From Pseudomonadota bacterium (lineage in GTDB: Bacteria > Desulfobacterota > Desulfobulbia > Desulfobulbales > SURF-16), in the NCBI GenBank assembly GCA_018897105.1, contig JAHILF010000091.1, positions 1 to 64,000 of the forward strand: a stretch of DNA of 64,000 bases. The letters are read 5' to 3'. A program made the position numbers and the translations under genes. Each line of letters opens with the position of its first letter. The first letter of the stretch is position 1. The notes under the pieces were generated by a model. The model did no database searches. It was not told where the DNA came from and was given only the letters and a program-made list of their open reading frames with translations. Positions 16,376 to 42,484 of this stretch are shown here, one piece after another.

Positions 16376-17140
16376 TCAGATCTTCGGGCTCGGCACGTTA
16401 TCGCCATGGCATTCCATACAGTTATTCTGGGCGGTAATACCATACTCTTTTGACTGGGAACCATTCTCCATCTCGAAATTGCCGTCAGCCCATTTATTGA
16501 GCAGGGTAACAGTGTGGAAAGCCACATCCGCAGCCACCCGGGCGCACCTGTCTTTTCTTTCAGCGCTGGCCAGGCTCACACCCTCTTTCTTCATCCATTT
16601 ACCTACGGAGACATGGCATAAAGGTGAATCCGAGGCATTCACCTGCTTAATGGTAGCCTTGGGATTAGCCGGCATAAAAATCGGCAGTTGGGTATCCCCA
16701 TACCAGGCAATGACGTCATTAAGAACCTCCTCACCCTTTTTTCCGGCGGCAAAGCTTGTCGCAATACCCGCGCCCATCAGGGTGCCGCATAAAGTTCCCC
16801 AGCCCACCGTTCCCCCATGGCCAAAGATAAAGGCCTCTACAGGCAGATTGTTGTAGGGGCCGCCGATCTGCTCTCGCAGCTGATCAATGATGGAGCTGGC
16901 CACCGCATAACAGCAATAATTTTTATACCAGTTCTCATAAGCGATCGCTGCGGTCTTGGCAGGATCCAGTTTTCGGTATCCCCATGGGGTGGGGGGGGGA
17001 GTCGTGGTGGCTGCGGCTGGCGTAACCAGTTCCGCTGCACCGACAGATAAAATGGCAGCACCAACCGCAACCTTACCGGCCCCGATAAGCATTTCCCTTC
17101 TTGACACTCCTTTTTTTTGATCCTGGCCACATCCACTCAT
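16376..17140 (-). CDS. Split-Soret cytochrome c-like protein, Tat-exported
   Basis: A Tat signal with SRREMLIGAGK (about 11-21) and a hydrophobic stretch is followed by a TTPPPTP linker. The mature part has the spaced cysteine pattern of the C_GCAxxG_C_C/split-Soret group: NYCCYAVASSIIDQL, GWGTLCGTLMGAGIATSFAAG, then SPLCHVSV, KDRC, and one heme motif CMECH near the C-terminus. The split-Soret cytochrome of Desulfovibrio is a dimer with one heme per subunit. The function is unknown, possibly Fe-S/heme redox in the periplasm. The start at 17140 is set by GGAG ten bases upstream and by the Tat motif. Confidence 0.82.
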   Translation of the reverse strand: MSGCGQDQKKGVSRREMLIGAGKVAVGAAILSVGAAELVTPAAATTTPPPTPWGYRKLDPAKTAAIAYENWYKNYCCYAVASSIIDQLREQIGGPYNNLPVEAFIFGHGGTVGWGTLCGTLMGAGIATSFAAGKKGEEVLNDVIAWYGDTQLPIFMPANPKATIKQVNASDSPLCHVSVGKWMKKEGVSLASAERKDRCARVAADVAFHTVTLLNKWADGNFEMENGSQSKEYGITAQNNCMECHGDNVPSPKI

Positions 17141-18443: not shown

Positions 18444-19430
18444 TCAGTTTTCTGCGGCCGGCTCGTCCAGCGGAATCGGCAGGCCGGGGCACTGCACCAC
18501 GTAGTCGATCTCCGGCGATACCCACTCGTTCCATTCCTTGCTGCTTATGTTGCGGATGAGTTTCTTGCAAAGTTCTTCCGGCCAAGTCTTGGGGGCTCGC
18601 CACAGCCGCAGGGTAGAGTCCGAACTGCCGGAGACGATGAGCGTGCAGTCCGGGCTGTCCCGTCCGAACCGCCGGAGACGAGGTAGCTACCGTCTGGACT
18701 CAAGGCAACTGTAGAGACCGATGCGTTAGATTTACTAAATTTGCGTAGGTCCCGAAACTGCAAGAGCCCGCTCAGCACACACCCCTCCACCTCGGGGACA
18801 GGCGCAATGCGCTGTGCCGCCAATATTGCAACAGGGCACGATCATCGCCTCCACTACGCTACGCATGCCGCGCAAGGCATCCAGGCCGCCGAGGATCTGG
18901 GCATCGCGTCCGAAAAGATCGCCGCGTCATTTTCCTCCAGAACGGACAGGCCGCGATAGGGCGGGCGCTGGGGGTCCTCGGCAGGCGGCCACTGAAAATG
19001 GCGTGCATCGAGACCTGCATTGTCCAGCCAAATGTGCAAGCTGTCGAGCCCCTTGGCGAGGAAATCAATCTGCTGAGTCTGTCCTTCGTACGTAAAATTA
19101 AAAGCGGACGCAAGGCCATCGCCCACCAAATGGCAAAACTGCCATTTGGTGGGCAGTTCGCTGATCTCCACCGGCTTGAGAACGGCGCCGAAGATTCGTT
19201 TGTTGAGGCTTTTGGCGAGCAGAAACTCGGCCAGGCACCACTTGGATTTCGCCCAGGCGGGCGTGACGACAAACACCACCGCTTCGCAACGGTCCGCCGC
19301 ACGCCGCCAGATCGCACTGGGGATCGATGTCCAAAAAAACATCATCCCAGCCGTTGACGCAAAGCCACTCCTTGAGCGCAAAGGCCTCAAGTTCATCAAT
19401 GCTGGAGTGACTGAGAAAGATGCGTGACAT
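18444..19430 (-). pseudogene. Collapsed TIR-nSTAND-WD40 gene
   Basis: The N-terminus reads MSRIFLSHSSIDELEAFALK and VFLDIDP, a TIR domain, then shifts frame with loss of about 20 nt. TIR sequence resumes (CEAVVFVVTPAWAKSKWCLAE, with the WCxxE glutamate). A linker leads to PPYRGLSVLEENDAAIF, the usual entry to an nSTAND1 ATPase. A missing T breaks the frame there; the next frame gives GRDAQILGGLDALRG. The ATPase core and most WD40 repeats are gone. What remains is one repeat (VSTVALSPDGSYLVSGGSDG), another frameshift, then the classic tail STLRLWRAPKTWPEELC to the stop at 18444. Intact relatives are 3-5 kb. The gene is dead unless the TIR stub is expressed. Confidence 0.86.
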
Positions 19431-19433
19431 GGC

Positions 19434-19523
19434 TCACCTAAGCTTTCGAATATCGATCCATGATACTCTCCCCATCCTGCACTTCACTTTGTTGTCCATG
19501 TCCTCCGTTCCCCCAGGCCCGTC
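19434..19523 (-). pseudogene. C-terminal scar of a second DUF4071/SLOG-type gene
   Basis: Immediately after the CHAT gene stop, one frame reads DGPGGTEDMDNKVKCRMGRV then SWIDIRKLR and a stop. It aligns almost without gaps to the C-terminus of the intact gene at 28814-30802 (DGPGGTAHMYNEVKRRTGRV then YWLDTGNL). The DNA is also recognisably similar. It ends three bases before the ATG of the TIR relic, so its GGTGA may have served as that gene's ribosome-binding site. It shows that a TIR-like/DUF4071/SLOG gene once preceded the TIR-nSTAND gene. Confidence 0.85.
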
Positions 19524-19527
19524 GGCT

Positions 19528-22500
19528 TCAACCTTTAGGTTTCGATGGTGGCGTCGGGGTTGCGGCTGTGGATGTCGTGGCCGGCTCTCCCGTCAGTCCT
19601 TGCAGGATGGCTTTGATCGTTTTGATAGTGCCGCCATCACCACCAAGCCTTTCCAGCATCTTCTGAATAAACTTCAGCTGACTCACCACCGAGTTCTGTT
19701 CGCGCGGTGTAGCTTGGATGGTGGTAAACACCTCGCGGTAACTGGCGATTATGGTATCAACGGCATCGGCTTTCAGCTCACCCCGCAGCAGACGACGCGC
19801 AATGTCGGCATCGGGTAAGGCGACGGCATCCCACAAGTTGCGCGAGATGGCGTAACGCTCGACGGCCGCCGCTTCGCAGCGCGACAACCACGACTCGGCA
19901 TCGGGCAGCTCGTGACCCAATAGCGCCTCGATAGTGATCCAATTAACGGCGTGGTAGGGATCAAGCCGGCCGCGCTGGTCACCTGTTTTGGCCGCCTTTT
20001 TGTAATAGACCGCGCTCTGCGTCAGGGCCTCGAGCAAGGGTTCGCGCTCGGTATTGACCTGTGCCAGGCGCTTGTAAGCGCTGCCCAGCAGGGCCAGTCG
20101 CTCACGGGTCTTGCCAAGCGCAATGAGGTGCTGGAGGCGATCAATGGCATTTCCGATTAATTTGGGATCCTTCTGTTTCTCCCCTAACCGTGCCTCGAGG
20201 TTGGCAAGTTGTTCCGCGGCAGTGATGTTTACACCACTGTCCTCTTCATCCGCGGCCAGAGCACGCTGGTAATAGTCGATAGCGCTTTTGAATTCACCCA
20301 GATCGCTGTAGGCCCGGGCAAATCTGTACAGCACTGCCCCGCGGGTTTGCCACGTGGCCGGGCAGTCCTTTTGCAGCGCCAAAAGTTTTTCCATCAAGAC
20401 CTCTTTCCGCTGCTTGAACTCATCTGTCGCTGTATCTGCAAGGTCTTGTGTCTCAATCCTTATCGAACCCAAATCATAGAGAACTTCCTCCATCGCCGCA
20501 TATTGTCTGTCCTCAGGCCCAGTGCCGACATCCTCCGCGGCGTTGAGGCGGAAATTGGGGTCGCCGTATGCTTGGTAAGCACCCCAGGTGTTGCTGTCGC
20601 GGTACTGCGTCCAGGTTTTCTCGCGCGCCTTTTGCAACGCCTCGCCGAAGGTCGCGCCATTGAGCATAGCGGTGTAAAAGACCTTGGCGAACCAGTTCGC
20701 CGCATCGTCTCGCACGGCCCAGCCGGCGGCGACCACAGCGCGCACCCCCATCTCGATGAGTTCGCGCGACAGGCTGGCGGCGAGCTTATTGTAAGCGACC
20801 GAGCTCGTATCCTTGGCCTCGGGTCCCATTTGCGCCAAATAGCAGCAGTTGAGGAAGACCAGATCAGGGACATGGCGCATCTGCGCGACCTCAACCGCGG
20901 TGAGATACAAGCCGCCTTCCAGCACCATGCCGCTGCGCGCCGGGCGATCCGCCATAGTTGAGGCCTCGTAGTAGCCGTGCCCAGCCAGGTGCAGGATGCG
21001 GTAGGGTTGGGCAAAAAGCCGGTTAAATACGTCAAGGGCGTTAGGCCTCTCGGGGTTGTATTCCACTGTATAACCCTTGTTTGCCAGTAAATCGTTAACA
21101 AGCCGCGCCTCGGCGCGTGCACCCGGCAACGCGGGAATTGTGTCTGACGTGACGGGATCGCCGACGACATAGGCCCACTTGGAGGTGGCGGCGCGAATCT
21201 GGGTGCGATAATGCCCCGTTCTCAATTGACGTACGAAGCCGAGTTTCACGCATAGCGGCTCACCGCCATCCACCATCAGTTCCCAGGGATAGTTGGCGGT
21301 CTCGGCATCGACCTCGATCACCAGCCGCGTGAGCTGCCCGATGCTGTCCTTGAGCTCGTTGGGCAGCAGCAGTTCGCACAGGGTGCGGGCTGTTCCCAGC
21401 CGGAACCGGGTATCTCGTATCGAGAGTTGCACAAACTTGTCGATGAGTTCGGGTTGACGTTGCTGCACCCTCACTTCAGTACGGGCCCGGTCCGCGATGG
21501 CGACATAGAGCAAGGCGCAATGCGGCTCATTGCGGCTGTCGTTGTCAGTGAAGGCACAGTCCAGCACGGCGCGCCAAATCCCCTCATCCAGCCGGCTGAC
21601 ATCGGAGAGACTGGCCTTGAGATGCTCGGCAATCGCTTTGGGCAACATGGGCAAGCGCGTCGTTGTTTGTGGGACGGATATGGCAGTCACCGCCCAGCGG
21701 CGCCACTGTTCTGCTGTGGGCATCTGCGAACGCCGTATGCGGCCGTTGCGGCCGATGACCAGCTCTGGATCAACATCGATGCGCGCCTCCAATGCCTCAG
21801 CGATAGCGGGTGCGAGCTTGCGCGCCGCGTGCGCGGCTTGCGTGGCCACGTCGATGAACAGCTCGATGATTTCGAACCGGTTGATGCGCACCGGGATGTG
21901 GGCCCTGTCAAGCTCCACGTTTGCCTGAGCAAGCGCGCGCATCATAGCAGTGACTGAGTCCTCCACTGTAATGGCGGCCGCCGAATTGGCGCCGATCAGT
22001 AGTGCGCTCAAGCCGATCTCTTGCGCTTGGTACGCGCCCGCTGCGCGAGACATGCCATGATAAGTTTGCAGCGCGTATTGCAGCGCCCCTTCACGCACGG
22101 CATTTGCCAGTGTTCCTGTACCAAGATCACCCATCCGCCCGAGACCGATCACTACAGCACCGCGCGGAATACCCAGGCGCGTTTCCAACTCGCTCGTCTG
22201 GCCCCGCACGATAGCGGTTGTCCCCGGCGCCCCGGGATAGATGCCAAGCTGATAACGTTGCGACAGGGCGCAGTCGAGTTGGCGGTCCAGGTGAGCCTCG
22301 GCAGCGATGATGGTATCGCCGAGGTAATGGCCTACCATGACCGGGTAACTGGCATAGCGCAGATCGCCATGCACCACGCAAACCTTGAGGCTTACCGGTA
22401 CGCGCCGCCGGTAGGCCCGAACCGGTTTGCCCATGAATCCGGCGATGAGTTCGCTGCGCGTAGGATACAACAGCGGCTGCGGCGCGTAGGGCAAGCTCTT

Positions 22501-26127: not shown

Positions 26128-28765
26128 TTAGGTTGCTGCGCTACCCTCCGCCAAAAAATTGTTCAAGCGATCTCGTATTTTGCGTTGATCTGAGCTTAGA
26201 GTCTCGGGAGCGATATCCATCAGCCAGGCGAGGTATTCTTGCATTACTATCTTCGCTTGGTCCTGCAGACCCTCTTGCGCCAAAATTTTGAGTAAGCTCC
26301 ACGCAGTATTCATCGTTGCCGTGTGATGTTGGCCCAATACCCGACAGCGCCTCACCAGTGCTTGCTTAAACAGTTCGCGAGCAGCCCCAAATTCACCGCT
26401 GCTCGCGAGGAAGCCCGCGAGGTTATTCATACTCCTCAGTGTTTCGGGGTGGTCCTCACCCAGTACCCGCTGACGCACCGTTAACACCTGTTCCTGAAGT
26501 TTGCACGCAGCAGAAAACTCCTTTAGATAAGCAAAGGTTACTGCGAGGTTATTCATATAACCCAGAGTGTCAGGGTGCTCGTCGCCCAGCACCCTCTTGC
26601 TCAAAGACAGCAGGTCCTCCTGCAATTGGAGTGTAGCTGAAAAATCGCCCAATTCAGCAAGTGTTAATGCGAGGTTGTTCGTAACCGTCAGTGTACAAGG
26701 ATGATCCGATCCAAAGACTCGGCGGTATCCCGCCAACGCTTGCGCATGTAATGCCTTTGCAGTGGTGAGTACCCCCATCTCCCGCATAGTTTCCCCAAGG
26801 TTATTCATATCCCTCAGGGTGTCCAAGTGCTCATCGCCCAGCACCCGCCGACTCACTGCCAGCACCTCCTCCTGCAGGAGACGCGCGCCATTTAAATCGC
26901 CCAAGGCCCGCAGGGTGGCCGCGAGGTTGTTCATGATCGTCAGGGTGTCCGGGTGCTCATCGCCCTGCACCCGCCGACGCATCGCCAGCACCTGTTCCTG
27001 CAGAGTGCGCGCGGCGGCATACGCCCCGCGCACGTAGTCATAATGAGCAATCCAAGCGCAAAGCATGCCAGTCGCCAGATCGTCATCCATGCCCACGACA
27101 AGGAAGCGGGCATGGATGATCCAGTTCACCAGCGTTGCGTGGTGGCGGATATCGTCGGCCTGCCCGGCAAGCTCGGCCGTAAGCGCCTGCACGGCCGCGG
27201 CACGCAGGGCTGCACTGCGCTCGGGGTGAACAGCGCGGAAACGCATTGTGCGCGTGACCAGGATATGGACGGTCACCGAGAAATCGGCAACCCCGGTATC
27301 CTCGGCCAGGGACTGCTCCCGGGCCTGGTGCAGGGCGAGGTCGGCGCGGTCTTGCGCATCTGAGTCGTTAATGCCGTCGGCAGCCGCCAATACCCGCGCG
27401 ACCAGACGTCTGGAAATGGGCGCGACGGCCAGCACGGCAGCCAGGCGCAGAAAGTCACGCGTCGTTTCGTTTACGTTATCGATGCTCTGCAGCAGCGTGA
27501 CGGCAATGCTGGCCTCGTGGCCGTTGGGTAACTGCCCGGCGAAACGGCGCGCCAAATCCAGGGCATCCGTATCCGGCTTGTGGAGATCGGCGAGAAACTC
27601 CGGATACGGTTTACCCTTGAGACGCGCGGCGGCCACATCCACCGCCAGGGCGTGACGCCCCAGGGCGGTGAGAATGCCGTCCACCGCGGCGGCCTCGGCG
27701 TCACTGACGGGCGGTCGTTGTTGGGTGAGCAAGCTGCGCGCTTCGGGCTCTGCCAGCACGCCCACATCCACCATACCACCCAATGCCTCGTACTCATGGC
27801 TGCGGCTGGTGAGCAGGGTCTTGCCGAGGGGATGGGGGGCGTACCAGCTTTGCAGATCCTGCATCGGCACATCCGCCGGCACGTCATCGATCACCCAGAG
27901 GAAGGGCTGGTTCTGGCGTGCAAAATGGGTATGCAACTCGCCTTCGATCTGGACCAGGCTCTTGTTTTTGATCTCCATGCCCAGCCAGGCGGCAAGGTTA
28001 CGCCACTGCTGCTCCCGCTGCTGGGTGAGCGCACCGGTGGAGGCGGTCGCGCCACTCTCAGCCGCCGTGCGCGCACTGAGCCAGAACACGCCGCCGGGAT
28101 AAGCGGTGCCGTAACGCAAAGCGTATTCCTCGGCCAGCAGGGACTTGCCCATGCCCCCGCCACCCACGAGCTGCGCCAGGGCCGTGCCCTGTCGGAGCTG
28201 GCCGATGACAGTCTGGCCGCGCCAGAGTGCGTCATGTATCTGCCACATATGACGCAACCGCCCCACGAAACGCGCCGAACCGGTGGGCGTGTTGGGAAAC
28301 CAGGAGGGGGTGACAAGCGGCCGGATGTCGCCGAGGGCGCCTGTCACTTCCCGCACCTGGGCCGCGATGCGCGTGGCGAGCTTGTCATAACTGGCTTGAT
28401 CATCCATGGCCGGGGCGCTGAGGTAATGCTGATCCCTCAGGCAGGGCGATGTGATCAGGCTTGGTTTCCGGATTGACGATGAGCACCCGCCGGCGCGGAT
28501 CACCAATATGCTGCGCGGCGAGGTAGGCGATGGTGAGTTCCCATTGACAGGGGCGGGAAAGCGGATAGACAGAAGAATACCATGCCAGAACCGCCTTGCT
28601 CTGCGCCAGGCATTCAGTGATCGTGGCTGTGACGGCGGCAAAGTCTTCGATCTCGCTCTCGTCGATCCACACCTTAAGTCCCAAGCCACGCAAGCGATCC
28701 GCTAGCGGACGCACATGCTGGGCATCCAGGCGCCGGTAACTTATGAACAGGTCATACGGAGGCAT
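26128..28765 (-). pseudogene. TIR - NB-ARC - TPR (NLR-like) gene split by one frameshift
   Basis: From ATG 28765 a TIR domain reads PPYDLFISYRRLDAQHV with the NADase-type glutamate Glu76 in CQWELTIAYLAA. Around 28440 the frame changes by one: the first frame stops at 28400 while the next continues DQHYLSAPAMDDQASYDKL and runs to 26128. The second part has a P-loop (VGGGGMGKSLLAEEY), a Walker B-like FLWVIDDVP and TSRSHEY, all of an NB-ARC STAND ATPase. Winged-helix-like sequence and about seven 42-residue kinesin-light-chain-type TPRs (EQVLAMRRRVQGDEHPDTL pattern) follow. Both halves look well conserved, so the lesion is recent, a sequencing indel, or programmed frameshifting. Functionally it would be the ligand sensor of the island. 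Confidence 0.82.
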
Positions 28766-28813
28766 GCGTGTGTTTTTTCAGTGCTCGTTTTTACTTGGTA
28801 GTGACAAGGCTCA

Positions 28814-30802
28814 CTAAAGATTTCCAGTGTCGAGCCAATAGACTCTCCCGGTCCTGCGCTTCACTTCGTTGTACATATGCGCCGTCCCCCCAGGCCCATC
28901 GCCGCCTTCGCCATTCCATAGGCAGACGAAGCGCACCTTGTCCACGCCGCAGGCAAGCGCGGTGTAGAGCAGCCAAAGATTGCAGCGCTCGTAAGGGTAG
29001 CCTGGTTCGGCCTGCGGCGGCGGCTCACCCAGCTCTTCCGGTGCGGAACGAATGGGAGCGGCGAGTTTGGCCTTCGCATCGAGGTAGCGCTGGCGCCAGA
29101 ACTCACAACCACGCACCACGGATTTGTCGATGAAATCCGGTTCGCGAAACGGCTGCAGCCAGTGCACTTTCACGCCCCGCTGCTGGCAGGCCTCGGTGAA
29201 CAACAGGTCGCCACCGCAGGCGCCCTGGGTAAGAGCGAGATCGTCCGGGCCGGCGCCGAGCTGGTCCAGCGCTTCGGCAATCTTCTGCGCGGCGATGGGT
29301 TCTTTCCTGGCGGGGAAGCGTGGTGGGATACGACCAGGCACGTCGATCATGTGGCCGCTGAACAGAAACACCTGGCGCGGTTGCCAGCGGTCCACGGGCT
29401 GGGTGAGTTTTTGCAGTGCACGATCAAAGGTGGCGAGGCCGGTATCGACGTTTTCCGGTTGAAAACCCAGATCCTTGAGCAATTGCAGTTGCGCCCGGCT
29501 GGAACTGAGCGCGAACCAGTCCTTGTCGTTCTTGGCGATGGCCTCCTTGTAGGCGGCCTTGACGGTATCCGGCGTGCCGACCAGCACTTCAAGATCGCCG
29601 ATGGTCGCGAGGGACCAGAAGCGTTGATGCTCGTCAGGCTCGCACTCCGCGGCGAACCTGACCGCGCCGGCCATGGCGGCCATCTCGCGGTCGTAGCGCG
29701 TGTCGTGGGTGAGGAGGTGGCGGTGCAAGTGCATCAGGGTGAGCGCATTGATGCCGGAGTAGTAGTGGCCGGGGTTGTGCCGATAGCCCTTGGCGTAGCT
29801 GTCGATCGCGGCGCGCAGCAGGACATCTTCGTAGGCCGCTTCATCCCGCATTTCTTCGGGCGTTTTATCGGGCTGGCGCCAGGCGGCGGTCCACGCATCT
29901 TTATCTACACGGCCCAGCAACGCCCAGGTTTCCGGGTCGTTAGGGTGGTTTTTTAATATGTTGCGGTAATGCTCACGCGCACGGTCCAAGGTATGGACTG
30001 GATCGCCGTCCGCACCCAAGCGCTGCAGACAGATGCCCTTCTCGCGAAGACCTTTCAGGTTGCCCGGGTCGATCGCCAATCCGCATTCGAGTTGTTCCAG
30101 CGCAAAGTCGAAGCGCTCGGCCTTGCGCAAAGCCTCACCCGCTCTGATCCAAGCCTCTGAGCGGAACGCGGCCACCGGGGCTTCGTCCACGAGCACCAGC
30201 ACATCACCGATATGCCCCGCCTTGCGCGCCAAGATAATGCGATCTTCCCAGGCATCGTGCTGCGCCCAGAACTCACGCACCTCGCCGATACGAAGAGATT
30301 TCCAGTCCGGCTCCTGCAAATTAGGCATCAACTGATACACCGGGCTTACCTTGCGTCCGTGCCAAGACTCCAGCGTTGCCTTGGCCATTTCGGTTAGATG
30401 GAGTTTGTCGTTTTCCAGCGTGGTGGGATCCGGCCCCCCGGCTCTGATGCTGTAGCGCAACTTGCGATCGGTATAGAGATCGAAGGCGGTTGCCACTCTC
30501 CCGCCGCTGATCAGCACTACACCACGGGCACGCAGTGCATGGCGTACACCCAGTTCGTACCAGACATTGGGGTTGTCGAGGGTGAGATCGGCCAGCACCA
30601 AATCGGCGATCAGCAACTCCTGGAACATGTCGGTGCGAATGTCGCCGGCGCGCTCTTCTTCGTCCGCGCGAAAGACGTCCAGACCTGCTGATTCAAGTGC
30701 TGGCTTGATCAGTTCGGTATAGACACGATTGAAATCGATATCGTTGCCCTGGCGATCCTTCTTTACACCGAAAGGCATGGCGACAAAGGCGTGCAGTTTC
30801 AT
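28814..30802 (-). CDS. TIR-like/deoxyribosyltransferase-fold - DUF4071 (TRAFs-binding) - SLOG-like protein
   Basis: 662 residues, first gene of the island operon. The N-terminal domain (1-115: HAFVAMPFG, DMFQELLIADLVLADLTLDN, then Glu83 in NPNVWYELGVRHAL) has the nucleoside 2-deoxyribosyltransferase/TIR-like pattern, with the Glu where such folds act on N-glycosidic bonds. The centre (about 175-460) is helical TPR-like sequence of the DUF4071 or MAP3K TRAFs-binding type. The C-terminus (about 475-660: FLFSGHMIDVPGR, TQGACGGDLLFTEACQQRGV) looks like a SLOG/Rossmann nucleotide-binding domain; that last call is by pattern only. The start at 30802 was taken for AAGGTG upstream. It might sense or degrade a nucleotide such as NAD+. 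Confidence 0.78.
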   Translation of the reverse strand: MKLHAFVAMPFGVKKDRQGNDIDFNRVYTELIKPALESAGLDVFRADEEERAGDIRTDMFQELLIADLVLADLTLDNPNVWYELGVRHALRARGVVLISGGRVATAFDLYTDRKLRYSIRAGGPDPTTLENDKLHLTEMAKATLESWHGRKVSPVYQLMPNLQEPDWKSLRIGEVREFWAQHDAWEDRIILARKAGHIGDVLVLVDEAPVAAFRSEAWIRAGEALRKAERFDFALEQLECGLAIDPGNLKGLREKGICLQRLGADGDPVHTLDRAREHYRNILKNHPNDPETWALLGRVDKDAWTAAWRQPDKTPEEMRDEAAYEDVLLRAAIDSYAKGYRHNPGHYYSGINALTLMHLHRHLLTHDTRYDREMAAMAGAVRFAAECEPDEHQRFWSLATIGDLEVLVGTPDTVKAAYKEAIAKNDKDWFALSSSRAQLQLLKDLGFQPENVDTGLATFDRALQKLTQPVDRWQPRQVFLFSGHMIDVPGRIPPRFPARKEPIAAQKIAEALDQLGAGPDDLALTQGACGGDLLFTEACQQRGVKVHWLQPFREPDFIDKSVVRGCEFWRQRYLDAKAKLAAPIRSAPEELGEPPPQAEPGYPYERCNLWLLYTALACGVDKVRFVCLWNGEGGDGPGGTAHMYNEVKRRTGRVYWLDTGNL

Positions 30803-40550: not shown

Positions 40551-40915
40551 AGCTGTTTGTCGGTTATTTCTCTTTTCAGCTAGCTTTACTGACCTGGTTA
40601 CGTTGAAATATCAGGGGATTTTTTTCCCATCGGTGGTATGACAGATCTGGATATTATCCATAATGGGTAAATATCGGCTAGAAACAGTTGCTGCTCATAA
40701 ATATCGTTTGGCAATTCCTTTCATAAGTGATAATTGTCGATAAATCATATAATTGCAGATGGTCTGGCAAAATTAATGTTTCGTATTTATTGTCCTTGAG
40801 GGCAAAACACCGGCACCGAATTTTCGTGACGATAAATCAGTAATTTATCATGCACTGTACGGCTGTCGAATTTTACAATACCGATGTCAACTGTAAAGAC
40901 AGGAATACAGTATAT
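40551..40915. other. Intergenic region before the type I restriction remnant
   Basis: AT-rich, no credible gene. Its 3' part (40816-40870) is a copy of the dispersed palindromic repeat and marks the left edge of the hsd region. Confidence 0.5.
40816..40870. repeat. Dispersed repeat family, copy 2
   Basis: Nearly identical, in inverted orientation, to 52589-52643: CGAATTTTCGTGACGATAAA, a central TTTATC/GATAAA palindrome, then TGCACTGTACGGCTGTCGAA. It is also related to 138-198. It abuts the start of hsdM. Confidence 0.82.
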
Positions 40916-42484
40916 ATGGCTGGAAACAACGAACTGGAAAAAACCCTGTGGGCGGCGGCGGACAAGCTCCGTTCCAGCATGGACGCCGCAGAGTACAAAC
41001 ATATTGTCCTTGGTCTGATCTTTCTGAAATACATCTCGGATGCCTTTCAAGATCTGCACGAAAAGCTCAAGGCGGGCGCAGGGGAGTTTGCAGGGGCCGA
41101 TCCTGAGGATGCCGACGAGTACCTGGCCCACAACATTTTCTTCGTGCCGGAAAAGGCCCGTTGGCAGTTTCTGCAGGACCATGCCAAGCAACCGGAGATC
41201 GGCAAGTGGCTCGACGAGGCCATGGACGCCATCGAGAAGATCAACCCCTCGCTCAAGGGGGTGCTGCCCAAGATCTACGCCGACCCGGAACTGAACAAGC
41301 AGCGCCTGGGCGAACTCATCGACCTGATCGGCACCATTGGCTTCAACCAGAGTGGCCACCAGGCCAAGGATCTGCTGGGGCGGGTCTATGAATATTTTCT
41401 TGGCCAGTTTGCCGATGCCGAAGGAAAGAAAGGAGGCCAGTTCTGGACTCCGCAAAGCATCGTCAAGGTGTTGGTCGCCATGCTCGAACCTTACCACGGT
41501 CGGATCTATGACGGTTGCTGCGGCAGCGGCGGCATGTTCGTGCAGAGCGAACGCTTTGTGGAGGAGCACCAGGGCAACATCAAGGATCTTTCCATTTACG
41601 GTCAGGAATCCAACCCCACCACCCTGCGTCTGGCCAAGATGAATCTGGCCATTCGCGGCATCGATGCAAAAATCGAGTTGGGAGATACCTTTTTAAACGA
41701 TAAACACAAAGACCTGAAGGCCGACTTCATTCTCGCCAATCCGCCCTTCAACGTAAGCGACTGGAGCGGCGAACACCTGCGTGACGACCATCGCTGGAAA
41801 TACGGGCCGCCTCCACCGCCTATCGGCAACGCCAACTATGCCTGGTTGCAGCACTTCGCCCATAAGCTCAGCCCCAGCGGCACGGCCGGGATCGTGCTGG
41901 CCAACGGCAGCATGAACTCCAACACCGGCGGCGAGGGCGAGATCAGGAAAAACATGATCGAGGCCGGGCTGATCGACTGCATGGTGGCCCTGCCTGCTCA
42001 GCTCTTTTACAATACCATGATCCCCGCCTGCCTGTGGTTTCTGGCCCGCAACAAAACCAACGGCAAATTCCGCAAACGTTCGTGTGAGATCCTCTTTATC
42101 GACGCCCGCAAGCTCGGCTCCATGATCAACCGCCGCAACAGGGAGTTTTCGGACGACGACATCGCCCTGATCACCGGCACCTACCACGCCTGGCGAAATG
42201 TCGGACCGGGTTCCGTAGGGGCGGGTTTGGAACCCGCCCCTACGACGACATACCGTGACATCCCTGGTTTCTGCAAGTCGGCCACCCTTGAAGAGGTGCG
42301 GAAGAACAACCATGTTCTCATGCCGGGCCGCTATGTCGGCACCGAGGCGGAGGAGGACGACGGCATCCCCTTTGATGAAAAGATGAAGACCCTCACCGCC
42401 AAACTGGCGGAGCAGTTTACCAGGGGCAGAGAGCTGGAGAATACCATTCGCGAGAACCTGAAGAGGATCGGCTATGAGTTCTGA
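40916..42484 (+). CDS. hsdM: Type I restriction-modification DNA methyltransferase subunit
   Basis: N6-adenine methyltransferase, 522 residues. The N-terminal helical HsdM domain begins [23 protein letters not shown]-binding motif I is GCCGSGGMF (about 199-207) and the catalytic motif IV is NPPFN (about 274-278). The C-terminal end [16 protein letters not shown].. resembles the HsdS-contact region. A 15-18-residue in-frame insertion near 430-445 ([13 protein letters not shown]) comes from a palindromic repeat. ATG 40916 matches the usual HsdM start; an upstream ATG at 40850 falls in the dispersed repeat. No hsdS is present, so it is probably inactive as a complex or depends on a specificity subunit elsewhere. 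Confidence 0.9.
42215..42243. repeat. REP-like palindrome inside hsdM
   Basis: GTAGGGGCGGGTT - TGG - AACCCGCCCCTAC: perfect 13-bp arms and a 3-base loop. It sits in frame in hsdM and adds residues absent from usual HsdM proteins between YHAWR and [22 protein letters not shown]-type palindromes are common intergenic REP elements, rarely coding. Confidence 0.85.

Follow-up and report, generated by a model that had tools for sequence, protein, structure and literature searches.

In the 64,000-nt stretch of contig JAHILF010000091.1 analysed here (the window), the 90 bases between a CHAT gene and a TIR relic are a genuine fossil, an ordinary gene remnant; they are homologous to the 3′ end of the DUF4071/TPR-S family, but do not form a complete DRHyd, TPR-S and SLOG gene. 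The best explanation, which we regard as probable, is that this stump is left from an operon made up of a DUF4071 sensor and exchangeable effectors, and that a rearrangement joined it to CHAT. The stump would be the non-functional 3′ end of a sensor gene once placed directly before a TIR-nSTAND1-WD40 gene (TIR1), to which the parent gene was probably translationally coupled. The rearrangement would have deleted the first ~645 codons or moved them elsewhere, bringing the stump to the stop codon of the complete CHAT gene. The homology, the collinearity with intact operons, the decay and the turnover of partners are documented below, and the exact rearrangement is what we infer.

The stump and its neighbours in the window

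As the initial annotation had claimed, positions 19434-19523 correspond to the C-terminus of the intact DUF4071 gene of the window, P0001, and the DNA is similar as well. An ungapped alignment of 19523..19434 with 28900..28811 (both on the minus strand) gave 70 identical positions out of 90 (77.8%; E 1.9e-16 within the window). The pairwise comparison with shuffled sequence that had been proposed as a check revealed a real match, with a local score of 78 against 14.9 ± 2.2 (maximum 25) for 2000 dinucleotide shuffles, none of which reached the stump score. The reading frame is retained (DGPGGTEDMDNKVKCRMGRVSWIDIRKLR followed by the stop, vs. DGPGGTAHMYNEVKRRTGRVYWLDTGNL and the stop at the intact DUF4071 end), and the stump was matched by a profile of the last 66 DUF4071 residues (E 2.8e-9 among the collected loci) and by a 35-position tail profile (E 4e-10 in the whole-genome search). 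By its position in the P0001 model, the stump corresponds to the helix and strand with which the SLOG domain ends. Homology begins at 19524, next to the CHAT stop (19528-19530), and reaches ~10 nt beyond the stump TGA (19434-19436), to 19424 in the stump and 28801 in the intact gene; the ATG of the TIR1 relic lies at 19430, 3 nt past the stump stop. Between CHAT and TIR1 no further DUF4071 profile matches were found, the missing ~645 codons being without trace there, and neither the stump region nor P0001 had a match in PLSDB plasmids.

Table 1. Features of the minus-strand cluster in the window, in the order P0001, TIR2, caspase, lipase-CHAT-TPR-S, stump and TIR1 relic, with the possible TIR1 trace behind P0001.
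Feature	Coordinates	Strand	Evidence
Intact DUF4071 gene P0001, 673 aa	28814..30835	(-)	Pfam TPR-S 2e-16, MAP3K_TRAF_bd 5e-7
Possible TIR1-start remnant behind P0001	28801..28810	(-)	GCCTTGTCAC vs. relic GCCATGTCAC, 9/10 identical
TIR-NB-ARC-TPR gene (TIR2)	26128..28764	(-)	TIR_2 at 4e-14; TPR models match in another frame
Caspase-like peptidase (C14), 281 aa	25230..26075	(-)	Pfam Peptidase_C14 5e-32; PADLOC caspase 2.6e-22
Lipase-like + CHAT + TPR-S protein, 1870 aa	19528..25140	(-)	Pfam CHAT 6e-34, DUF7379, LCAT, TPR-S
DUF4071 3′-end stump	19434..19523	(-)	29 C-terminal codons plus stop; DNA 78% identical to the 3′ end of P0001
TIR-nSTAND1-WD40 relic (TIR1)	18444..19430	(-)	TIR 58-77% aa identity to L045/L055; tblastn E 3e-64

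The genes on the two sides of the stump differ in their state. When aligned with homologues, the C-terminus of the CHAT protein is complete and extends beyond the end of most of them, which rules out that CHAT was cut by the junction; a complete CHAT gene adjoins the stump through a rearrangement, in line with the proposal that recombination had placed it there. In the TIR1 relic, the TIR domain is spread over two frames (19430-19302 and 19309-18911), the STAND domain and most WD40 repeats are gone, and a WD40-type C-terminus is left at 18647-18447. A near-perfect inverted repeat, CCCACCAAATGGCA / TGCCATTTGGTGGG, was seen inside this relic at 19121-19154.

The first reading had also placed both DUF4071 ends within 50 nt of a TIR-STAND gene. 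The distances hold, being 3 nt for the stump and 49 nt from the P0001 stop at 28814 to the TIR2 ATG, but the two genes represent different families, TIR-nSTAND1-WD40 (TIR1) and TIR-NB-ARC-TPR (TIR2). TIR2 is frameshifted near 28.41 kb (28400-28420), between its TIR and NB-ARC parts, which may be a sequencing error or a real inactivation; its paralogue on another contig of the same genome (C80) is intact.

Intact and broken DUF4071-TIR1 junctions elsewhere

We collected 80 loci with P0001 as query. The predicted gene pair, with DUF4071 directly before TIR-nSTAND-WD40, was indeed present intact in three of them, a full TIR-nSTAND1-WD40 gene following DUF4071 after a 4-nt spacer in L045 and L028 and after 35 nt in L055. 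L045 and the window are collinear at the DNA level through the stump, the stop, the spacer and the TIR start, with the junction intact in L045 (GGGTAATACCATGTCACGCATCTTCCTCAGCCACTCC); the TIR-nSTAND1-WD40 protein of L045 (P0003, 1388 aa) matched nSTAND1 at 2.7e-69 and also WD40. In the window the order is the same, with a spacing of 3 nt, but neither gene of the pair is intact: the stump is truncated, TIR1 is frameshifted and its STAND domain is lost. A patatin gene follows two of the three intact pairs, and no patatin relic was seen behind the WD40 relic of the window, at the place where L045 and L055 have patatin. In L076 (73 codons) and L023 (short and interrupted), an intact DUF4071 gene is likewise followed by a remnant of the TIR1 start. 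In L076 (9984-11050) the intact DUF4071 gene and the 73 TIR1 codons are followed by WD40 fragments, the TIR-STAND partner decaying there also.

Searches of the family and the class found no genome with the locus as it was before the rearrangement. DNA of the window locus had no match in the 21 other genomes of the family, and P0003 had none in 258 genomes of the class at E 1e-60, a weak negative, with none in the window's genome either at this cut-off. Among viral contigs P0003 had no relative and P0001 one weak, N-terminal relative.

The DUF4071 tail profile was run over 80 genomes and found about one tail per genome, the exceptions being the window stump, C80, L022, G258, G643 and G658. A second full-length DUF4071 copy, or a diverged or close homologue, was present in three of the 80 (G258, G643, G658). 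Two candidates for further stumps were rejected, G258:C27 as a partly masked diverged relative and G643:C129 as a diverged relative of nearly full length. The window's genome carries on contig C80, in this order, a DUF4071 relic, in which codons ~545-573 are joined to ~644-673, then ~33 TIR1 codons and an intact TIR-NB-ARC-TPR gene. This last gene has the leader AACGAGCAC in common with the window TIR2, and the TIR domains of the two are 76% identical. Together, the C80 relic and the window stump indicate that this genome once had at least two DUF4071-TIR1 junctions, both broken now. A third, behind the intact P0001, is weakly hinted at by the short TIR1-like sequence there (Table 1), which is contiguous with the DUF4071 tail homology and weak alone; only its last seven bases were weighed (6/7, weak), because GTGAGCC also occurs behind L084. 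The relics on C80 and the intact TIR-NB-ARC-TPR gene lie in a predicted defence cluster (L127; 1372-8200, minus strand), which also holds a 565-aa protein, a DUF4231/SLATT protein and a TIR-like protein.

In L022, an independent stump decayed by indels (~16675-16766, plus strand) lies directly before a DUF4062 gene and ~6.7 kb behind the intact DUF4071 gene of that locus. L022 is a sister lineage of P0001; the two form one clade with L007 (support 97), with three different neighbours.

The three stumps (window, C80 and L022) start within ~15-20 nt of one another. That of the window starts at codon 645-646, inside the 30-nt stretch where G is most frequent in the whole gene (0.60 at codon 641, against a mean of 0.31), the C80 deletion ends at ~codon 644 and the L022 stump starts at ~codon 643-649. 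This clustering is only suggestive, because detection favours the last 35 codons. The G-rich codons of the glycine loop could be a recurrent seam at which effector cassettes are exchanged behind the sensor and 3′-end stumps are left, a suggestion that we regard as doubtful; if true, it would help explain how one sensor works with many effectors. In a literature search, we found no papers describing TPR-S or DUF4071 stumps, or stumps left by partner exchange.

Decay of the stump and origin of the junction

Differences between the stump and the intact tail fall on codon positions 1, 2 and 3 in the ratio 6/4/8. The third-position share is therefore 0.44, at the 2.4th percentile of 736 functional tail pairs of similar divergence (0.63 ± 0.10), with selection only weakly measured over so short a stretch. 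Nine of the 13 polarisable changes are on the stump side, and conserved residues have been changed there (H653D, E657K, T662M). From the low third-position share and the excess of changes on the stump, most of the divergence followed the loss of coding function. With the stump-branch changes added back, we estimate an identity of roughly 90% between the parent tail and the intact one. In the 76 other loci, the tail closest to the stump has 24 differences over 84 positions, and the parent gene cannot be placed on the tree because only 84 nucleotides are informative. Over 176 codons the TIR1 relic lacks any in-frame stop (P ~0.09 at the 13% decay estimated from the stump); stump and relic may thus have died at different times, the relic later.

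That the DUF4071/TIR-STAND pair had existed twice, as first proposed, does not follow from the two loci of the window, whose TIR-STAND families differ; strong evidence for a second DUF4071-TIR1 junction comes instead from C80, and the ~10-nt remnant behind the intact gene is further but weak evidence. A duplicated or laterally acquired DUF4071-TIR1 pair may have come to adjoin another operon, with the opposite genes of the two then lost, a course of events to which we give slightly less than an even chance. It agrees with C80, where the genome is seen to have held more than one such junction, with a parent tail that was ~90% identical to the intact one when the nearest of 76 other loci shows 24/84 differences, and with the second full-length copies or close homologues in 3/80 genomes. 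It requires more events than a split, however, leaves the missing 645 codons without a trace between CHAT and TIR1, and has to accommodate that, in the window, the TIR-STAND genes which follow the two DUF4071 ends are of different families.

Both fragments of the window are accounted for nearly as well by one operon, a DUF4071-TIR1 pair split by an insert of ~9.3 kb that carries TIR2, the caspase gene and CHAT; here ~100 bp across the junction would have been duplicated, the left copy completing DUF4071 and the right one forming the stump before TIR1, and no second full DUF4071 gene would ever have stood at the stump site. We lean modestly against this course, which, like the preceding one, is a sub-case of the best explanation. 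The fragments complement each other, the left one holding the whole of DUF4071 with no more than ~3 TIR1 codons and the right one 29 DUF4071 codons with the rest of TIR1, and they overlap at 19524-19424 / 28901-28801. CHAT, which lies at the inner edge, is a complete gene, the low third-position share suggests that the two ends parted about when one turned non-coding, and 77 of the 80 searched genomes are without a second full-length DUF4071 tail. Yet the TIR1 trace behind P0001 is short, with only 6/7 bases specific once GTGAGCC is seen to recur behind another family member; none of the insert's genes (TIR2, caspase, CHAT) was recognised as an integrase or transposase; and C80, as a further DUF4071-TIR1 junction in the genome, shows that duplicated pairs did exist.

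The stump could also have been retained because translation of the next gene is still initiated through it, and not be a fossil only. It ends in AGG TGA (last codon and stop), which looks like a Shine-Dalgarno site 3 nt ahead of the ATG, and many DUF4071 family members end in GGTGA or GGTAA; but the TIR gene is broken, leaving little to start, and ~10 of the 90 stump bases at most could serve, which makes this function quite unlikely. Chance similarity, or convergence on a glycine-rich motif, is suggested by a common stretch that starts in the G-rich glycine loop, but it is ruled out by the dinucleotide shuffles and has a negligible probability given also E 2e-16, a gapless alignment of 101 bp and the expected gene order and spacing.

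The predicted sensor and its exchangeable effectors

Under the preferred explanation, the stump would belong to an operon with a constant DUF4071 sensor, behind which effectors are gained, lost and replaced. For the window and 77 loci, we counted which genes lie downstream of DUF4071 (within 7.5 kb in each locus, 10.5 kb in the window). Of these, 39 have patatin, 18 caspase, 15 CHAT, seven the TIR1 type and three SIR2-TIR, often several of them consecutively. Mapped on the DUF4071 tree, the neighbour labels show 29 changes, between the minimum of 7 and the shuffled mean of 41, and neighbours are therefore partly inherited, yet often exchanged. The suggestion that DUF4071 and TIR-STAND form the functional unit was thus too narrow, patatin being the commonest partner; the unit appears to be built on one unchanging sensor, with a DRHyd fold, an ASK1-like TPR-S and a YpsA-like SLOG, while its effectors can be exchanged.

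The AlphaFold model of P0001 (pLDDT 84, pTM 0.81) was compared with known structures by VIA-align. Its N-terminal domain resembles MilB, DNPH1 and nucleoside deoxyribosyltransferases, with Z 11.8 to MilB, and the C-terminal domain is a YpsA-like SLOG (Z 16.0). The TPR part matched the ASK1 regulatory region (5ulm, Z 15.0 over 259 residues; 8qgy, Z 14.2); TPR stretches readily give high Z, and these ASK1 matches exceed the other TPR ones. TPR-S was recognised as PF20308 at 2e-16, above the gathering score, along with PF13281 at 5e-7, and P0001 had no match in PADLOC and NCBIfam. E94 sits in an invariant WYE motif, at the position of the catalytic Glu in deoxyribosyltransferases.

From its domains and neighbours, the system is predicted to act in anti-phage defence. 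P0001 would make or read an NAD+-derived signal and then trigger the effectors, which would damage the membrane, proteins or NAD+, killing or arresting the infected cell. TPR-S systems were reportedly predicted by Burroughs and Aravind (J Bacteriol, 2020; cited in PMC8195603) as bacterial relatives of the ASK signalosome. The window resembles these systems (PF20308) in the TPR-S domain, in the TIR, CHAT and caspase genes nearby and in the ASK1-like middle of P0001, but differs from them in its three-domain DRHyd-TPR-S-SLOG sensor with strongly varying partners. Parts of the ASK signalosome have been traced back to bacterial conflict systems (PMC8195603), and TIR, DRHyd and SLOG domains make or read NAD+-derived immune signals, the signal of Thoeris being read by SLOG (PMC9503650). 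Thoeris (TIR ThsB and SLOG ThsA), where SLOG reads a TIR-made NAD+ derivative, is the closest tested precedent (PMC9503650), and on the side of the window P0001 has its YpsA-like C-terminal SLOG. In contrast to Thoeris, PADLOC found no ThsA (SIR2-SLOG) match among the ten proteins scanned, and for the TIR genes the ThsB models gave weak matches, none better than 5e-5. Patatin, as the most frequent partner of DUF4071, was recognised by PADLOC phospholipase models at 8.5e-42, like the patatin phospholipase effectors of CBASS, but the gene ahead of the patatin is DUF4071.

As a single relic the stump changes little, the system being of a known kind. It is physical evidence that a predicted ASK1-like TPR-S immune sensor changes its effectors by local rearrangement, and it points to testable candidates for phage defence, namely the DUF4071-TIR-nSTAND1-WD40 pairs (L045, L055, L028) and the DUF4071-patatin pairs. 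A HsdM-type N6 DNA methylase gene of a type I restriction-modification system lies ~10 kb from the cluster, at 40850-42484 on the plus strand.
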